Assembly (NCBI RefSeq): GCF_022921095.1
Contig: NZ_CP095053.1
Span: 2,088,501-2,152,500, forward strand
DNA from: Hymenobacter aerilatus
GTDB taxonomy: Bacteria > Bacteroidota > Bacteroidia > Cytophagales > Hymenobacteraceae
Length of the DNA stretch: 64,000 bases
Direction of reading: 5' to 3'
Below the pieces are notes generated by a model. The model saw only the letters and a list, made by a program, of their open reading frames with translations. It was not told the DNA's origin and made no database searches. The first letter of the stretch is position 1. Every line of letters starts with the position of its first letter. The translations under genes were made by a program, and so were the position numbers. Positions 2,324 to 56,836 of this stretch are shown here, one piece after another.

Positions 2324-3583
2324 ATGCAACAGGTACCCAACGCAGAAATTATCACAATCGGCGACGAGCTGCTCTACGGGCAGGTTATCGATACCAATTC
2401 GGCCTTCATGGGGCAAGAACTAGGAAAACTGGGCGTACGGGTACGACAAATTACGAGCGTGTCGGATAGGGGAACTGAGATTGTGCAGGCCCTGGATGCG
2501 GCCCGCGAACGGGCCGATGTGATTCTGCTCACGGGTGGCCTCGGACCTACTAAAGACGACCTGACCAAGCACGTGCTCACTGAGTATTTTCGCTCGGAGC
2601 TGGTGCTGCACGAGCCTACCCTACAACACGTAGAGGCCATCTTTGCCCGCTATAACCGGCCTATGCTAGAGGTGAATCGTCAGCAGGCCTTCGTGCCGCG
2701 CGTGTGCCAAGTAGTGCCCAACCCTATGGGTACGGCGCCGGGCATGTGGTTTGAAGACCGGGGCACCGTGTTCGTGTCGATGCCGGGCGTGCCGTTTGAG
2801 ATGAAGCGCATGATGACCGACACGGTGCTACCACGCCTGCAAGAGCACTTTCATACGGCTCCCATCGAACACGTGGTGGTGCAGACTGTTGGGCTCGGCG
2901 AGTCGTTTCTGGCCCAGCAGATTGCTGATTGGGAAGATTCCCTACCCCCCAATATGAAGCTGGCCTACCTACCCTCGCTCGGGGCCGTGCGCCTACGCCT
3001 CACCGGCACCGATGATGGCCAACCTGACCTGCGCGGCCGGATGCTGGCCCTACTCCCTGCTCTGCGCGAGCGGCTGGGCACGCATATTTTTGCCGAAGGC
3101 GAAGTGAAGCTGGAAGAAGCCTTGGGGCAGCTCCTGCGTGAGCGGGGCCTCACGGTGGGCACCGCCGAAAGCTGCACCGGCGGCTACATTGCCCAGCGTC
3201 TCACCAGCGTGCCGGGTAGCTCGGCCTACTTTCAGGGTAGCATTGTGGCGTATCATAACGACATGAAGGTGAAAGAGCTAAGCGTGAAGCCCGAAACGCT
3301 GCAAGCCCACGGCGCCGTAAGCGAAGCCACTGCCCGCGAAATGGCCGAAGGCCTGCGCCAGCGCCTGGGCGTAGATGTGGCGGTGGCCGCCAGCGGCATT
3401 GCTGGCCCCGGTGGCGGCACCACCGAAAAGCCGGTGGGTACCATCTGTATTGCCTACGCCGACGCCCACCAAACTGTCAGCCGCCAGCTCAATTTTGATC
3501 GGGGCCGCCAGCTTAATATAGAATACACCTCCACGGCCGTACTGAATCTCCTACGCCTGAGCCTACCCCCAGTGGTGAAATAG
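2324..3583 (+). CDS. cinA: CinA-family nicotinamide-nucleotide amidohydrolase
   Basis: A 419-residue protein of full CinA length with two domains. The N-terminal MoCF-biosynthesis-like domain (about 5-175) has IGDELLYGQ and GGLGPT (71-76). The C-terminal CinA amidase domain (about 258-415) has AESCTGG (about 281-287) with the candidate catalytic Ser and GSIVAYHN. In the CinA family the C-terminal domain deamidates NMN for pyridine-nucleotide salvage, and the N-terminal domain can act as an ADP-ribose pyrophosphatase. It is cytoplasmic. The start ATG at 2324 gives the usual family N-terminus. It stands alone, upstream of the E2 gene and separated from it by a 165-nt gap containing simple GTGAGGTGG-like repeats. 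Confidence 0.93.
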   Translation: MQQVPNAEIITIGDELLYGQVIDTNSAFMGQELGKLGVRVRQITSVSDRGTEIVQALDAARERADVILLTGGLGPTKDDLTKHVLTEYFRSELVLHEPTLQHVEAIFARYNRPMLEVNRQQAFVPRVCQVVPNPMGTAPGMWFEDRGTVFVSMPGVPFEMKRMMTDTVLPRLQEHFHTAPIEHVVVQTVGLGESFLAQQIADWEDSLPPNMKLAYLPSLGAVRLRLTGTDDGQPDLRGRMLALLPALRERLGTHIFAEGEVKLEEALGQLLRERGLTVGTAESCTGGYIAQRLTSVPGSSAYFQGSIVAYHNDMKVKELSVKPETLQAHGAVSEATAREMAEGLRQRLGVDVAVAASGIAGPGGGTTEKPVGTICIAYADAHQTVSRQLNFDRGRQLNIEYTSTAVLNLLRLSLPPVVK

Positions 3584-3586
3584 TGA

Positions 3587-3690
3587 GGTGGTGAAATGGT
3601 GAGTTGGATGTGTTAATGGCTCTATCAGGGCAGCTTACGCAGTCAAAACGTCAAACTCGCCATCTCACCACCTCACCATTTCACTATTCC
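3587..3690. repeat. Short inverted/microsatellite-like repeat (GTGAGGTGGTGAAATGG type)
   Basis: GTGAGGTGGTGAAATGGTGAG after cinA is mirrored imperfectly by CTCACCACCTCACCATTTCAC at about 3660-3684. The same word recurs at 30081 (GTGAGGTGGTGAAA) and near 32733. It probably forms a weak terminator hairpin. Confidence 0.5.
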
Positions 3691-5492: not shown

Positions 5493-5620
5493 CCAGCAAA
5501 AAGCCGCGTCATCCTGAGCAGAGCGAAGGACCTTATGCCAGTTGAACGAGTCGTTAAACGATTATCGTTCTGGTATGATAAGGTCCTTCGCAAGCTCAGG
5601 ATGACACGGCTTTTTGCTGG
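5493..5620. repeat. Dispersed palindrome, family A (GTCATCCTGAGC...GAAGGACCTT)
   Basis: Arms GTCATCCTGAGC...GAAGGACC and its complement enclose the inner word GTTGAACGAGTCGTT. The flanks CCAGCAAAAAGCCG and CGGCTTTTTGCTGG extend the palindrome outward. It lies between convergent genes and may act as a bidirectional terminator. Confidence 0.85.
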
Positions 5621-7820: not shown

Positions 7821-7919
7821 AGAACGTCCTTTCGACCAGCGGGAGAAGTCTTGCGTGCTTCCGGTAACTATTTCGGTGTCAGCACGCGAGACTTCTCTCG
7901 CTGGTCGAAAGGACGTTCT
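7821..7919. repeat. Dispersed palindrome, family C (AGAACGTCCTTTCGACCAGC...)
   Basis: 39-bp arms (7821-7859 and 7881-7919) with two mismatches and a 21-nt loop. The inner words (TCTCGCGTGCT) are shared with the family B copy at 42889; the outer words are different. Confidence 0.85.
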
Positions 7920-10654: not shown

Positions 10655-10772
10655 TGTCATCCTGAGCGCAGCGAAGGACCTTCTCACGCTGGCACGACAG
10701 GCGCACTAACGATTCGTCCTCACGTACATCGTTCACGCGTGAGAAGGTTCTTCGCTGCGCTCAGGATGGCAG
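10655..10772. repeat. Dispersed palindrome, family A
   Basis: Left arm TGTCATCCTGAGCGCAGCG, right arm CGCTGCGCTCAGGATGGCA. The inner halves CTTCTCACGC and GCGTGAGAAG also pair. It lies between ferredoxin and valS. Confidence 0.85.
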
Positions 10773-12513: not shown

Positions 12514-12819
12514 ATGCCCTTCACACCTTCGACAGACACAGCTGAAATCATTGAGAAAGAAGCTATTCCTAGTCTGCACTTTCCTACCGAAGATGTTCTC
12601 ACCGACCCGCTCGACCAGCAGCGCCGCCGCCATGATGCTGAACGGGCTACAGCCCTAGGCAACAACTACCAAGGCAAAGTAGACATCTATTTCCGCACGT
12701 CCGACTACATCACCCGCCGCGTGCACACCAGCATCTGGGCCAGCCACGACAACAGCCTTACCTTGAAAGCCGGTGTGTCCCTACCCTTGCAGGCTGTGCT
12801 AGGGTTTGATTTTTATTAA
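12514..12819 (+). CDS. Conserved-looking hypothetical protein
   Basis: A 101-residue soluble protein with no signal peptide or membrane segment. The N-terminal half is acidic (TDTAEIIEKEAIPSLHFPTE). The C-terminal half reads like a small beta-rich domain (GKVDIYFRTSDYITRRVHTSIWA, then LKAGVSLPLQAVLGFDFY). No known motif was recognised. The good frame, the codon usage like its neighbours and a following family A palindrome support a real gene. Function unknown. Confidence 0.65.
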   Translation: MPFTPSTDTAEIIEKEAIPSLHFPTEDVLTDPLDQQRRRHDAERATALGNNYQGKVDIYFRTSDYITRRVHTSIWASHDNSLTLKAGVSLPLQAVLGFDFY

Positions 12820-12831
12820 TAGAAGCGTAAG

Positions 12832-12947
12832 ACAAACATGTCCTCCTGAGCGCAGCGAAGGACCTTCTCACGCGTGAACGACCGTCATAATAACGACTCG
12901 TTCACGCGTGAGAAGGTCCTTCGCTGCGCTCAGGAGGACATGTTTGT
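12832..12947. repeat. Dispersed palindrome, family A: perfect 49-bp inverted repeat
   Basis: Arms 12832-12880 and 12899-12947 match at every position around an 18-nt loop. The usual CATCCTGAG word is CCTCCTGAG here, changed in both arms. The outer ACAAACATG/CATGTTTGT flanks also pair. It is a convergent intergenic location. Confidence 0.95.
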
Positions 12948-12972
12948 TTAAAACACCTAAACAACCTATCAA

Positions 12973-13845
12973 CTACAACCGATCCAGCGTCTTCACAATC
13001 AAATCGTTGATGACGTCTTCTGAATTGGTGGCAAACTCGCCGGTGGCGCGGTTGGCTACAATGGCGTTCAACGACACAACTTCGTGGCCGAGTAGGCGGC
13101 CCAGGGCATAGTACCCGGCCGTTTCCATCTCAAAGTTGGTGAGGCGCAGCTCGCCCTCGGCGCTCTGGTGGCGGAAGTTTTGGAATTGCTGAATCAGATC
13201 GGGCTGGCGTAGGTCGAGGCGCAGCACGCGGCCCTGGGGTCCATAGAAACCGGGGCAGGTGAGCGTGTTGCCTACCACCATGTCTTTGCCAAGCTGCTCA
13301 CGCAGCAAATCGGAGCCGCGCACGCAGTAGGGACGGTAGGGCAGTTGTAGCGCCTCCTGAATGCCGGTGGCTACTTCCACTTCCAGACCAGTTTCTACCA
13401 AGGGATAGAACTGCATCAGCGAGTCCAAGCCCACGGCGTGCTCCGTAACCAGGTGTGAGCCCACTGGAATATCGGCCTGCAAGGCGCCGCTGGTACCAAT
13501 ACGCACAATGCGCAGCTGAATCCGCTCGTCGTGCGGGCAAGGCTCCCGCCCTACAAAGTCGATGTTGACCAGCGCATCCAGCTCATTGAGCAGAATATCA
13601 ATATTATCGGTGCCCATGCCGGTCGAAATTACGGTGAGGCGCTTGCCTTTGTAGTAGCCTACGTGGGTCACAAACTCGCGCTTGTGAATTTGCGTCTCAA
13701 TAGAATCGAAATGCCGGCTGACCATTGGCACCCGCTCCGGGTCGCCCACCGTGATGATGGTGTCGGAAATATGATCGGGGAGCAGGTTGAGGTGGTAGAT
13801 GCTGCCGTCTTTGTTCAGGATCAGCTCCGATTCGGGGATGGGCAT
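12973..13845 (-). CDS. Nucleoside phosphorylase (uridine phosphorylase-like)
   Basis: A 290-residue PNP/UDP-phosphorylase-family enzyme. Features include TIITVGDPERVPMVS (phosphate-binding Gly-Asp-Pro region), VISTGMGTDNIDILLNE, RIGTSGALQADIPVGS and the nucleoside-binding segment around NFEMETAGYYALGRLLGHEVVS, whose FEMET is the ribose-binding Glu-Met-Glu motif. It cleaves purine or pyrimidine nucleosides with phosphate in the cytoplasm for salvage. The base specificity is uncertain; uridine is favoured by the overall resemblance to Udp. A TATCTTCG-like element lies upstream near 13871. Confidence 0.9.
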   Translation of the reverse strand: MPIPESELILNKDGSIYHLNLLPDHISDTIITVGDPERVPMVSRHFDSIETQIHKREFVTHVGYYKGKRLTVISTGMGTDNIDILLNELDALVNIDFVGREPCPHDERIQLRIVRIGTSGALQADIPVGSHLVTEHAVGLDSLMQFYPLVETGLEVEVATGIQEALQLPYRPYCVRGSDLLREQLGKDMVVGNTLTCPGFYGPQGRVLRLDLRQPDLIQQFQNFRHQSAEGELRLTNFEMETAGYYALGRLLGHEVVSLNAIVANRATGEFATNSEDVINDLIVKTLDRL

Positions 13846-13887: not shown

Positions 13888-13987
13888 GTCATCCTGAGCG
13901 GCGCGAAAGACCTTGTACCCACAAAACGAGTCGTTGGTACGATGGTCGTTTTGGCGTGAGAAGGTCCTTCGCGCTGCTCAGGATGAC
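13888..13987. repeat. Dispersed palindrome, family A (partly degenerate inside)
   Basis: GTCATCCTGAGCGGCGCGAAAGACCTT is mirrored by AAGGTCCTTCGCGCTGCTCAGGATGAC with small differences. The inner word ACGAGTCGTT is shared with the copies at 5493 and 56698. Confidence 0.8.
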
Positions 13988-29626: not shown

Positions 29627-30073
29627 ATGCAAATTCTCATTCTCAACGGCCCCAACCTCAACTTGCTGGGCCAGCGCGAGCCGGGCATCTACGGTACCCG
29701 CTCGTTTGATGCCTACCTGCCCGAGTTGCAGGAGGCCTTCCCGAACCTGACCATCGACTATTTTCAGAGCAACCACGAAGGACAACTGATTGATAAGCTG
29801 CACGAAGTGGGCTTCACCTACCACGGCGTGGTGCTAAACGCGGGTGGCTACACGCACACCAGCGTGGCTCTGGCCGATGCCATTGCGGCCATCAACACGC
29901 CCGTAGTGGAAGTGCACCTGAGCAACCTGCACGCCCGCGAGGAGTTTCGCCACAAAAGCCTCATCGGCAAAAACTGCGTGGGCAGCATCGCGGGCTTCAA
30001 GCTCGACAGCTACAAGTTAGCGCTGCACTATTTCGACGGCCTACGGCCTAAGCGGGTAGGGTTTCGGGTGTGA
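29627..30073 (+). CDS. aroQ: Type II 3-dehydroquinate dehydratase
   Basis: A 148-residue enzyme of the usual type II size from ATG 29627 (MQILILNGPNLNLLG). All signature segments are present: NGPNLNLLGQREPGIYG with the catalytic Tyr, SNHEGQLIDKLHE, NAGGYTHTSVALADAI, and the lid/active site EVHLSNLHAREEFRHKS with the conserved His and Arg. It dehydrates 3-dehydroquinate to 3-dehydroshikimate in the shikimate pathway and forms dodecamers. The frame is open upstream to 29528, but that would add a non-homologous leader. It is followed by a family A palindrome, not by other aro genes. Confidence 0.96.
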   Translation: MQILILNGPNLNLLGQREPGIYGTRSFDAYLPELQEAFPNLTIDYFQSNHEGQLIDKLHEVGFTYHGVVLNAGGYTHTSVALADAIAAINTPVVEVHLSNLHAREEFRHKSLIGKNCVGSIAGFKLDSYKLALHYFDGLRPKRVGFRV

Positions 30074-30100
30074 TGGAAAGGTGAGGTGGTGAAAACGGCT

Positions 30101-30217
30101 GTCATCCTGAGCTTGCGAAGGACCTTATGCCAGTTGAACGAGTCGTTATGACGTCGGTCATTCTTACGTGAGAAGGTCCTTCGACACTGGCTTTATGCGC
30201 CACATGCTCAGGATGAC
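30101..30217. repeat. Dispersed palindrome, family A with chimeric right arm
   Basis: The left arm GTCATCCTGAGCTTGCGAAGGACC is standard. The right arm carries CGACACTGGCTTTATGCGCC before ACATGCTCAGGATGAC, the inverted GAGCATGTGGCGCA variant seen at 18536. Confidence 0.8.
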
Positions 30218-32012: not shown

Positions 32013-32025
32013 AGAGGGTCTTGAG

Positions 32026-32101
32026 GTCTTGGGGACTTAAGGGTTTGGTTGACGTTCAACGACTTATCGGAACATCAACCAAGCCCCTAAGTCCCCAAGA
32101 C
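32026..32101. repeat. Locus-specific 27-bp palindrome between marC and rnhA
   Basis: Arms 32026-32052 and 32075-32101 match with two mismatches (GTCTTGGGGACTTA..). The word is not shared with the dispersed families. It may form a transcript-stabilising or terminating hairpin. Confidence 0.75.
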
Positions 32102-32123
32102 CCAAAGCCCTAACAACACCCTA

Positions 32124-32611: not shown

Positions 32612-32710
32612 TGTCATCCTGAGCCTGCGAAGGACCTTCTCACGTAGGAACAGCAGGCGTTAGATAGTTACTGTCTAGCGTGAGAAGGTCCTTCGCAGGC
32701 TCAGGATGAC
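32612..32710. repeat. Dispersed palindrome, family A
   Basis: GTCATCCTGAGCCTGCGAAGGACC and GGTCCTTCGCAGGCTCAGGATGAC match exactly, with GCCTGCG and CGCAGGC replacing the usual GCGCAGCG and CGCTGCGC in both arms. It is a convergent location. Confidence 0.9.
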
Positions 32711-39333: not shown

Positions 39334-39396
39334 AGGCCGTCATGCTGAGCTTGTCGAAGCATCTCTACCGCTTCGACAAGCTCAGCATGACGGCCT
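39334..39396. repeat. Dispersed palindrome, family B, short form
   Basis: 27-bp perfect arms (39334-39360 and 39370-39396) around a 9-nt loop ATCTCTACC. The core words GTCATGCTGAGC and GAAGC differ from family A; the flanking AGGCC/GGCCT also pair. Confidence 0.92.
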
Positions 39397-42888: not shown

Positions 42889-43000
42889 GTCATGCTGAGC
42901 GCAGCGGAATTGAAGCATCTCGCGTGCCTTGTTAATCTCAATCGTTCGGGAATTATCGGGAGCACGCGAGATGCTTCTACTCCGCTGCGCTCAGCACAAC
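42889..43000. repeat. Dispersed palindrome, family B
   Basis: GTCATGCTGAGCGCAGCGGAATTGAAGC and GCTTCTACTCCGCTGCGCTCAGCAC pair with a few differences, enclosing ATCTCGCGTGC/GCACGCGAGAT, which is also the inner word of family C at 7821. Confidence 0.82.
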
Positions 43001-44297: not shown

Positions 44298-44402
44298 TTG
44301 TCATCCTGAGCACAGCGAAGGACCTTTTTATTCGTGAACGGTTTTCGTACTAACGACTCGTTCACGAATAAAAAGGTCCTTCGCTATGCTCAGGATGACA
44401 AA
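44298..44402. repeat. Dispersed palindrome, family A with AT-rich inner arm
   Basis: The outer arm words TTGTCATCCTGAGC and GCTCAGGATGACAA are standard. The inner arms are TTTTTATTCGTGAACG and CGTTCACGAATAAAAA, replacing TTCTCACGCGTGAACG in both halves. It is a convergent location. Confidence 0.9.
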
Positions 44403-45215: not shown

Positions 45216-45345
45216 TGTCATGCTGAGCGAAGCGGAGCGAAGCGGAGCGAAGCGGAGCGAAGTCGAAGCATCTCTACCGTGAGTAATTCATTTACTACCA
45301 GTAGAGGTGCTTCGACTTCGTTCCGCTGCGCTCAGCATGACGCCT
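45216..45345. repeat. Dispersed palindrome, family B with 10-bp tandem expansion in one arm
   Basis: The left arm GTCATGCTGAGCG is followed by AGCGGAGCGA three times in tandem (about 45231-45260), then AGTCGAAGCATC. The right arm GCTTCGACTTCGTTCCGCTGCGCTCAGCATGAC has a single equivalent unit. Confidence 0.9.
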
Positions 45346-55443: not shown

Positions 55444-56697
55444 TTGAGTTTTCTGTATTCTGTTGCCATTTATCTGTACGGCTTGCTGCTGCGACTGGTG
55501 GCTCCTTTTGTGCCCAAGGCGGCGCAGTGGGTAGGTGGCCGTAAGGGCTGGCGAGTCCGCTTACGCGAAGCGCTCCGGCACGAAACGGCCCCGCTGGCGT
55601 GGTTTCACTGTGCTTCGCTGGGCGAGTTTGAGCAGGGCCGACCACTGATGGAGGCCTATGCCCGCCAGTACCCCACGCACAAAATCGTGCTCACGTTTTT
55701 CTCGCCCTCGGGCTACGAGGTCCGCAAAAACTGGCCTGGCGCGGCCTACATCCTGTATCTGCCGCTGGACACGGCGGCCAACGCCCGCGCCTTTCTGGAC
55801 CTGGTACGGCCCCGGCTGGCGGTATTCGTGAAGTACGAGTTCTGGCACCACTTCCTGCGGGAATTGCAGCGCCGCCAGGTTCCTACCCTCTGCGTGTCGG
55901 CTATTTTCCGACCTGAGCAGGTCTTTTTTAAGCCCTGGGGCAGCTTCTTCCGTGCTATCCTGAGTCGGTTCACGCACATTTTCACGCAGAACGATGCCTC
56001 GGTGGAGCTGCTCCGCCAGGCCGGCATTCGGCAGGCCAGCGTGGCCGGCGACACGCGCTTTGATACGGTAGCGCGCACGGCGGCGCAGCCACCTGTTTCC
56101 CTACCCCTGGTAGAGGCTTTCCAGGCCGATGGGGTGCCGGTGATGATTGTGGGGAGCAGTTGGCCAGAGGACCTGCCTACCCTCACCCCCTTATTCCAGC
56201 AGTACCATCAGGAACTGCGCTTCATTGTGGCGCCGCACGAAATTGGGGAGGCTAATCTGCGGCAGGTGGAGGCGGCGCTACCCGGCCAAGTGGTGCGTTA
56301 CTCCACTGCCACCCCAACCACCGTGGCACAGGCCCACGTGCTGCTCATCGACAACGTGGGGCTGCTTTCCCAACTGTACCGCTTTGGGCACTTTGCTTAC
56401 GTGGGCGGGGCCTTTGGCAAGGGCCTGCACAATACGCTGGAAGCAGCGGCGTTTGGCTTACCGGTGTTTTTCGGGCCTACCTACCACAAGTTTCAGGAGG
56501 CCGTGGAACTGGTAGCGCTGGGTGGCGCATTTCCGGTGCACTCGGCACAGGAGCTGGAAACGGCCCTACTCCCCCTGCTCCGCAACGAACCGACCCGCCT
56601 GCTCGTGCAAGACCTCAATATGGACTATGTTTTTCAACATGCCGGCGCCACCCAGCGCATCATGGCGTGGCTCGATGATAAAGTCGATGTGAAATAA
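55444..56697 (+). CDS. waaA: 3-deoxy-D-manno-octulosonic acid transferase
   Basis: A 417-residue GT30 enzyme, taking TTG 55444 as start. An N-terminal membrane anchor SFLYSVAIYLYGLLLRLVAPFV precedes the KdtA glycosyltransferase domain: HCASLGEFEQGRPLMEAY, LTFFSPSGYEVRKNW, KYEFWHHFLRELQRR and the C-terminal FGKGLHNTLEAAAFGLPVFFGP. It moves Kdo to lipid A precursor on the inner membrane's cytoplasmic face. The longer open frame to 55303 crosses the terminator of the upstream gene and the -7 element, so 55444 is preferred, but the non-ATG start is uncertain. Confidence 0.9.
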   Translation: MSFLYSVAIYLYGLLLRLVAPFVPKAAQWVGGRKGWRVRLREALRHETAPLAWFHCASLGEFEQGRPLMEAYARQYPTHKIVLTFFSPSGYEVRKNWPGAAYILYLPLDTAANARAFLDLVRPRLAVFVKYEFWHHFLRELQRRQVPTLCVSAIFRPEQVFFKPWGSFFRAILSRFTHIFTQNDASVELLRQAGIRQASVAGDTRFDTVARTAAQPPVSLPLVEAFQADGVPVMIVGSSWPEDLPTLTPLFQQYHQELRFIVAPHEIGEANLRQVEAALPGQVVRYSTATPTTVAQAHVLLIDNVGLLSQLYRFGHFAYVGGAFGKGLHNTLEAAAFGLPVFFGPTYHKFQEAVELVALGGAFPVHSAQELETALLPLLRNEPTRLLVQDLNMDYVFQHAGATQRIMAWLDDKVDVK

Positions 56698-56803
56698 ACT
56701 GTCATCCTGAGCGGAGCGAAGGACCTTCTCACACTAGCACGAGTCGTTGTTACGTCAGTCGTTCTACTGTGAGAAGGTCCTTCGCTCCGCTCAGGATGAC
56801 AGT
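56698..56803. repeat. Dispersed palindrome, family A, perfect 36-bp arms
   Basis: Arms 56698-56733 and 56768-56803 match exactly. GCGGAGCG and CGCTCCGC replace the usual GCGCAGCG/CGCTGCGC in both arms. ACT/AGT flanks also pair. Confidence 0.93.
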
Positions 56804-56836
56804 TCACAAATTCAATACTCACAAATTCACTATCTC

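Follow-up and report, generated by a model that had tools for sequence, protein, structure and literature searches.

The inverted repeat at positions 12832–12947 of the 64,000-nt stretch of Hymenobacter aerilatus DNA analysed here (the window) raises the question of how a dispersed repeat comes to be bordered on both sides by host DNA that is specific to the locus and is itself palindromic. An inverted-repeat search of the window places the arms at 12832–12881 and 12898–12947, each 50 nt long and 100% complementary across a 16-nt spacer, so that the perfect 49-bp inverted repeat reported in the preliminary description, flanks included, is borne out with one more nucleotide in each arm. The predicted RNA fold of 12825–12960 has an energy of −110.5 kcal/mol, with a z of −21 against 200 shuffles. 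The boundary of the family core lies at GTC/GAC (12840/12939), the next G being part of the core, which leaves 8 nt of locus-specific mirrored flank, ACAAACAT on the left and ATGTTTGT on the right. No Rfam match at gathering score was found within the window, and a tRNA-linked insertion was rejected, the window being without tRNA.

The same arm, or its GTCATGCTGAGC variant, recurs in about ten other inverted repeats of the window (Table 1). The paired flanks earlier described at 5493, 39334 (AGGCC) and 56698 (ACT) are indeed present, as 14 nt with one mismatch, AGGCC and AACT, respectively, and the core at the first of these three loci (5493–5620) is slightly unusual in having GTCCTCC in both arms where GTCATCC is usual. 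Other repeats in the window were seen in passing. An inverted repeat at 7821–7919 (AGAACGTCCTTTCGACCAGCGGGAGAAGTCTTG...) apparently belongs to another REP-like family and is also present in H. citatus, the H. profundi sequence being longer there, and the one at 32017–32110 (GGTCTTGAGGTCTTGGGGACTTAAGGG..., 41 nt, 85% matched) lies outside the doublet family. The left arm of a doublet at 45218–45340 has GCGGAGCGAA units repeated in a small tandem array within its loop, and in several doublets of 116–132 bp (30101–30217; L123:6257–6388) an insert of about 18 nt, GCGCATAAAGCCAGTG-like, interrupts the loop in one of the REP arms. GTGA-rich low-complexity tracts (TGGTGAAATGGTGAG), mutually inverted, adjoin the stop codons that border many doublets on either side (3575–3684, 30066–30095 and many flanks).

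Table 1. The inverted repeat at 12832–12947, its neighbouring frames and other family doublets, in window coordinates
Feature	Coordinates	Strand	Basis
Left mirrored flank ACAAACAT, locus-specific, outside family core	12832..12839	.	sequence and family comparison
Left doublet arm, REP-like head GTC outward	12840..12881	+	repeat search and family comparison
Asymmetric 16-nt spacer	12882..12897	.	repeat search; orientation compared with H. profundi
Right doublet arm, identical to left arm	12898..12939	-	repeat search
Right mirrored flank ATGTTTGT, locus-specific	12940..12947	.	sequence and family comparison
101-aa open frame left of doublet, pointing toward it; frame end conserved in L009, L010	12514..12819	+	
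Phosphorylase-superfamily gene (PNP_UDP_1) pointing toward doublet, making the gap convergent	12973..13845	-	
Family doublet; 14-nt flank CCAGCAAAAAGCCG mirrored, one mismatch next to core	core 5508..5605, with flanks 5493-5620		
Family doublet, longer spacer, 2-nt flank	10656..10770	.	
Family doublet, tandem genes, without mirrored flank	13888..13987	.	
Family doublet, insert within right arm	30101..30217	.	
Family doublet, convergent genes; flank mirrored only if a 2-nt slip is allowed	32613..32710	.	
Short GTCATGCTGAGC-subfamily doublet, flank AGGCC/GGCCT	core 39339..39391, with flanks 39334-39396	.	
GTCATGCTGAGC-subfamily doublet	42889..43000	.	
Family doublet, convergent genes, 2-nt flank; flank of H. 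citatus orthologue 14	44300..44399	.	
Family doublet, flank AACT (4 nt)	core 56701..56800, with flanks 56697-56804	.	

The doublet family and its known relatives

The usual doublet of this family is 100 bp long (51 of 117 sampled) and is formed by two arms with their GTC ends facing outward around an asymmetric centre. A 26-nt stretch of the arm, allowing at most 3 mismatches, matches the window's genome 116 times in the forward and 115 times in the reverse orientation (0 for a reversed control pattern), and with a loose pattern 155 doublets are counted against 279 unpaired or badly paired arms. The arm pattern is present in 83 of 101 Hymenobacter genomes; of 148 genomes sampled from the order, 17 have a related pattern, which is low in number outside the genus. 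Of 234 arms in the window's genome, 206 are tagged with TGTC (170) or CGTC (36), and of 76 sister-genome arms 71 are. Most doublets belong to a GAAGGA subfamily (88/117) and fewer to a GAAGC subfamily (19/117), the other 10 falling in neither; judged by eye, the stem of the GTCATGCTGAGC subfamily begins AT...AT, and the GTCATCCTGAGC subfamily ends GGAC, with loss of the first pair. Since GAAC, again by eye, usually adjoins the GAAGC core, a 4-nt mirrored flank in that subfamily may be part of the element.

A profile search of the window's genome for the Y1 transposase (PF01797) gave no match, a control search matching in 5 of 14 genomes, and a RAYT-driven REPIN was rejected because the genome has no Y1_Tnp match. 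The possibility that the doublets are the ends of a larger transposon was also rejected, just 1 facing arm pair 250–3500 bp apart being present in the stretches scanned. REPINs (PMC3116915) resemble the present family in that an inverted doublet and its spacer act as one hairpin, with hundreds of mostly intergenic arms, but differ from it in that the Hymenobacter genome is without a Y1/RAYT gene and the GTAG tag is absent. The tag of the family, the way its dimers are arranged and the missing Y1 transposase rather recall the CGTC-tagged REP dimers, which in PMC3733652 likewise have a CGTC/TGTC end tag, a short imperfect stem, an inverted-dimer arrangement, a mostly intergenic location and no linked transposase, and are recorded in Bacteroidetes. 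The stem of those REPs is 8–9 bp long, its first pair being an A with a T, and the loop measures 4–5. Hymenobacter is named nowhere in that paper (0 occurrences); the Hymenobacter stem differs by two non-pairing G/A positions (by eye), and the mirrored flanks here are locus-specific, whereas consensus palindromes are given there as targets. A limited search of the literature on Hymenobacter palindromic repeats, and on the letters of the repeat, did not return a description of the family among the matches listed.

Mirrored flanks beyond chance

Locus-specific mirrored flanks occur far beyond chance, the expectation being obtained by re-pairing left and right flanks at random. In 1.64 Mb of the window's genome, under stricter pairing, a mirrored flank of at least 7 nt is present at 29 of 117 doublets against 0.64 expected, with at least 10 nt at 19 (0.31 expected), at least 16 nt at 7 (0.06 expected) and at least 25 nt at 5, counts that are not unbiased rates, as 19 of the sampled stretches (L099–L108, L119–L126, L128) were picked for listed family matches. 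A first sample of 844 kb had given at least 7 nt at 17 of 64 loosely paired doublets, and 0.4 Mb of H. citatus (G059) give at least 7 nt at 16 of 38 doublets (0.71 expected) and at least 25 nt at 3. Most doublets of the window's genome (88/117) are without a mirrored flank of at least 7 nt. The longest tracts measure 57, 47, 41, 32 and 25 nt in the window's genome and 49, 38 and 27 nt in the sister genome; the 57-, 47-, 41- and 25-nt tracts come from the chosen stretches and the 32-nt tract, together with one of 28 nt, from unchosen ones. At the longest tracts the similarity breaks off sharply where the mirrored tract ends.

These tracts bear on whether the moving unit is simply larger than the core and brings its mirrored flanks along from site to site, as short flanks such as AAAAGCGTCT, found at several loci, might suggest. 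All 17 tracts of at least 13 nt are present in exactly two copies among the stretches compared, namely in their own two arms, and shuffled flank partners seldom match, which makes such a unit a very improbable source. Palindromes are known trouble spots for sequencing and assembly, and an artefact at hairpins is another conceivable origin of mirrored sequence; it is hardly credible here, given that mirrored flanks are found in several independent assemblies of differing contiguity, and a long-read artefact is made unlikely by the same pattern in an assembly with short-read-style contig names (NODE ... cov).

The same loci in sister species

H. citatus BT507 (G059) and H. profundi M2 (G060) both have a doublet between the same genes at the place corresponding to ~12840, where ACAAACAT is replaced by GAAAAAGCGTCT in the former and by ATAAAGCGT in the latter, each of them mirrored. 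The mirrored length is 8 nt here, 11 nt in H. citatus (the exact count within GAAAAAGCGTCT) and 9 nt in H. profundi, so that the comparison with relatives earlier proposed for this locus has a positive outcome, the flank differing between sister species and being mirrored in both arms each time. In many more distant Hymenobacter species (L011–L043), the gap left of the phosphorylase gene holds a different, unrelated perfect bidirectional terminator, which suggests that hairpins in this gap turn over fast in general.

At two loci selected because the window's genome has a long tract there, the mirrored flank measures 57/19/3 nt (L124) and 25/9/9 nt (L101) across the three species, the last value becoming 33 nt, by eye, with one 3-nt slip. 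The window's genome is about 20 nt longer than both sisters on both sides at L124, and whole flank blocks differ there between the sister species without homology. At L117:17955 a full doublet of 98–100 bp in both sisters corresponds, in the window's genome, to a perfect palindrome of 25 bp whose mirrored flanks measure 28 nt, as would be expected of a fold-back inside one arm. A 33-nt mirrored tract near the orthologue of that locus in H. citatus (L226) starts, by eye, about 12 nt outside the doublet and has the look of a copied flank whose inner part later diverged. H. citatus further has a different mirrored flank, of 11 nt, at the 5508–5605 locus and no doublet at the place matching 56701–56800. 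No usable orthologue of L104 or L107 was found in G059 or G060, nor was a place matching the sister-genome doublet with the 49-nt tract found in the window's genome.

A syntenic comparison of 464 kb of the window's genome with 400 kb of G059 places 24 doublets of the former in gaps with a doublet (18), a single arm (2) or none (2) in the latter, 2 being unmapped; for 40 G059 doublets the reverse comparison gives 18, 5, 10 and 7, respectively. The orthology of these shared doublets rests on common gaps, and independent insertion into the same gap is possible at any single locus. Across the 18 shared loci, a mirrored flank of at least 7 nt is present at 4 in the window's genome, at 9 in G059 and at 3 in both, and among these 3 the flanks differ clearly just at the window locus, common short family-like ends being seen at the other two. 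It has to be noted that, as the sister species are ~87% identical, single copying events are not directly visible.

For the outer 34 nt at the 18 shared loci, the edit distance within a doublet is 4.33 in the window's genome and 2.89 in G059, against 7.5 and 5.83 between orthologous arms, so that the two arms of a doublet evolve in concert. Identical 34-nt arms are found in 14 of 82 doublets, with 0.52 expected. The picture is less clear for the 20-nt flanks, whose distances within a doublet (9.72 in the window's genome, 7.22 in G059) are, set against those between orthologues (9.39 and 8.56), no better in the former genome and modestly better in the latter. Inversion of the spacer between orthologues was read by script at 2 of 10 loci and by eye at 2 of 3 more. 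By eye, the spacer is also inverted at L101 relative to each of the sisters and at the window locus relative to H. profundi. As to the donor arm, reading orthologues by eye suggests the right arm in one case (116136 in the sister genome) and is ambiguous at L117, so that no donor is fixed. The comparison with sister species thus presents a replacement of the flank in both arms at several loci, a homogenisation of the arms and an inversion of the spacer.

Whole-unit insertion accompanied by target-site duplications, named beforehand as the outcome that would speak against copying, was not seen at the 8 sister-specific sites inspected, which were aligned or read; none of these sites is clean in genomes ~87% identical.

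Gene orientation, terminators and probable copying between arms

Convergent gaps hold 45 of 113 non-genic doublets, compared with 175 of the 982 gaps of at least 40 nt (odds 3.1, p 3e-7), where genes were called crudely as longest open frames and stretch-end doublets that had no called neighbour were omitted, 2 per genome sample being additionally genic or neighbourless. Mirrored flanks are also commoner between convergent genes (18/45 against 11/68 elsewhere, p 0.008; 13/18 against 2/18 in G059), an excess that is not predicted by copying alone. Several long tracts are nevertheless independent of gene orientation: the 47-nt tract of L107 lies between a divergent DisA-like gene and IS110-type transposase gene, the 25-nt tract of L101 between tandem aminotransferase and PfkB genes, and the 16-nt tract of L115 between tandem rhomboid and MutL genes. 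Since these long tracts lie outside convergent gaps, selection for or targeting of terminators accounts for part of the pattern and not for the long tracts. Like the doublets, bidirectional intrinsic terminators are long hairpins, frequently accompanied by A and T tracts, that separate convergent genes; the doublets differ in having a dispersed family core and in being found also in tandem and divergent gaps, and their terminator function is putative.

One way in which terminators could account for mirrored flanks is that the doublet inserts into the loop of an intrinsic terminator, the flank being the old stem with its A and T tracts. The enrichment in convergent gaps agrees with this, as do the many flanks made of an A-tract and a few G/C bases, the ordinary perfect bidirectional terminators that more distant Hymenobacter species have at the window locus, and the REP dimers reported within consensus palindromes in PMC3733652. 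One candidate is g59 269850, which reads AAAAAGGCC-GTC...GAC-GGCCTTTT, a plain terminator containing AAAGCCCGTC...GACGGGCTTTT being present at that place in the window's genome. The preliminary description had held that a transposed element could not leave palindromic host flanks, and this was too strong, both because doublets are enriched at convergent gaps, where terminators are palindromes, and because g59 269850 fits an insertion into a terminator loop. As a general explanation, however, such insertion is unlikely, as there are tracts of 25–57 nt without terminator form, tracts of 16–47 nt lie between tandem or divergent genes (L101, L097, L115, L107), sister species have different flanks at a common doublet, and just 1 of 8 sister-specific sites looks like it. 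It is still less probable that selection alone, acting on doublets as parts of terminators, built the mirrored flanks by compensatory single substitutions; the association with convergent gaps would fit, but whole blocks differ without homology between the sisters at L124, a terminator needs less than perfect identity over 41–57 nt, and a consensus terminator scan found 0 in 12780–13010, around the window locus, albeit with a loop limit of 8, which is too short for the 16-nt spacer.

The mirrored flanks are probably caused by template switching between the arms, that is, by quasipalindrome correction, for which we infer a switch of template during replication as the enzyme-level cause. The REP-like inverted doublet (two arms of ~42 nt, GTC heads outward, asymmetric spacer) would fold into one very long hairpin, during the replication of which the growing strand would switch to the other arm as template, by intrastrand fold-back or on the sister strand, copy outward through that arm, continue beyond the family core into the host sequence and then switch back. 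A single event of this kind would turn the two arms, together with the adjoining host flank, into reverse complements of each other, and a switch in the first arm would leave the spacer inverted. Between convergent genes the lengthened hairpin with its A/T tract would probably also be a bidirectional terminator, and by virtue of this role copies may be kept more often there. Arm-templated copying past the core is also the part of the earlier proposal that stands, favoured by flanks that differ between sisters and yet are mirrored, by homogenised arms, by inverted spacers and by long tracts outside convergent gaps.

The copying process itself is already known, and the mechanism is most likely a known one in a setting that leaves an unusually rich record. 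Template switching between inverted-repeat arms is reported to homogenise the arms and invert the spacers in yeast genes (PMC8604942), to be a source of new perfect RNA stems (PMC8794818) and to underlie quasipalindrome mutation in E. coli (PMC7202029), so that arm homogenisation, spacer inversion and multi-base matched changes are common to those short template switches and the present case, which differs in involving a dispersed repeat family, many loci and up to tens of bases of host DNA. The literature searched yielded no account of REP dimers with locus-specific mirrored flanks, which is limited evidence.

A bolder and rather doubtful extension is that REP doublets without a transposase are made and renewed by replication, a single REP folding back and being copied with its flank into an inverted partner. 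The length of mirrored host DNA would in that case be a record of how far copying extended, and CGTC-type REP dimers would, if this is true, have a source that requires no dedicated transposase. Template switching at a hairpin is usually met as an isolated, rare event, and here dozens of mirrored host flanks are present in one genome, offering a natural record of the tract length, direction and strand preference of bacterial hairpin copying, and one that bears on the homogeneity of transposase-less REP dimers and on the origin of bidirectional terminators.
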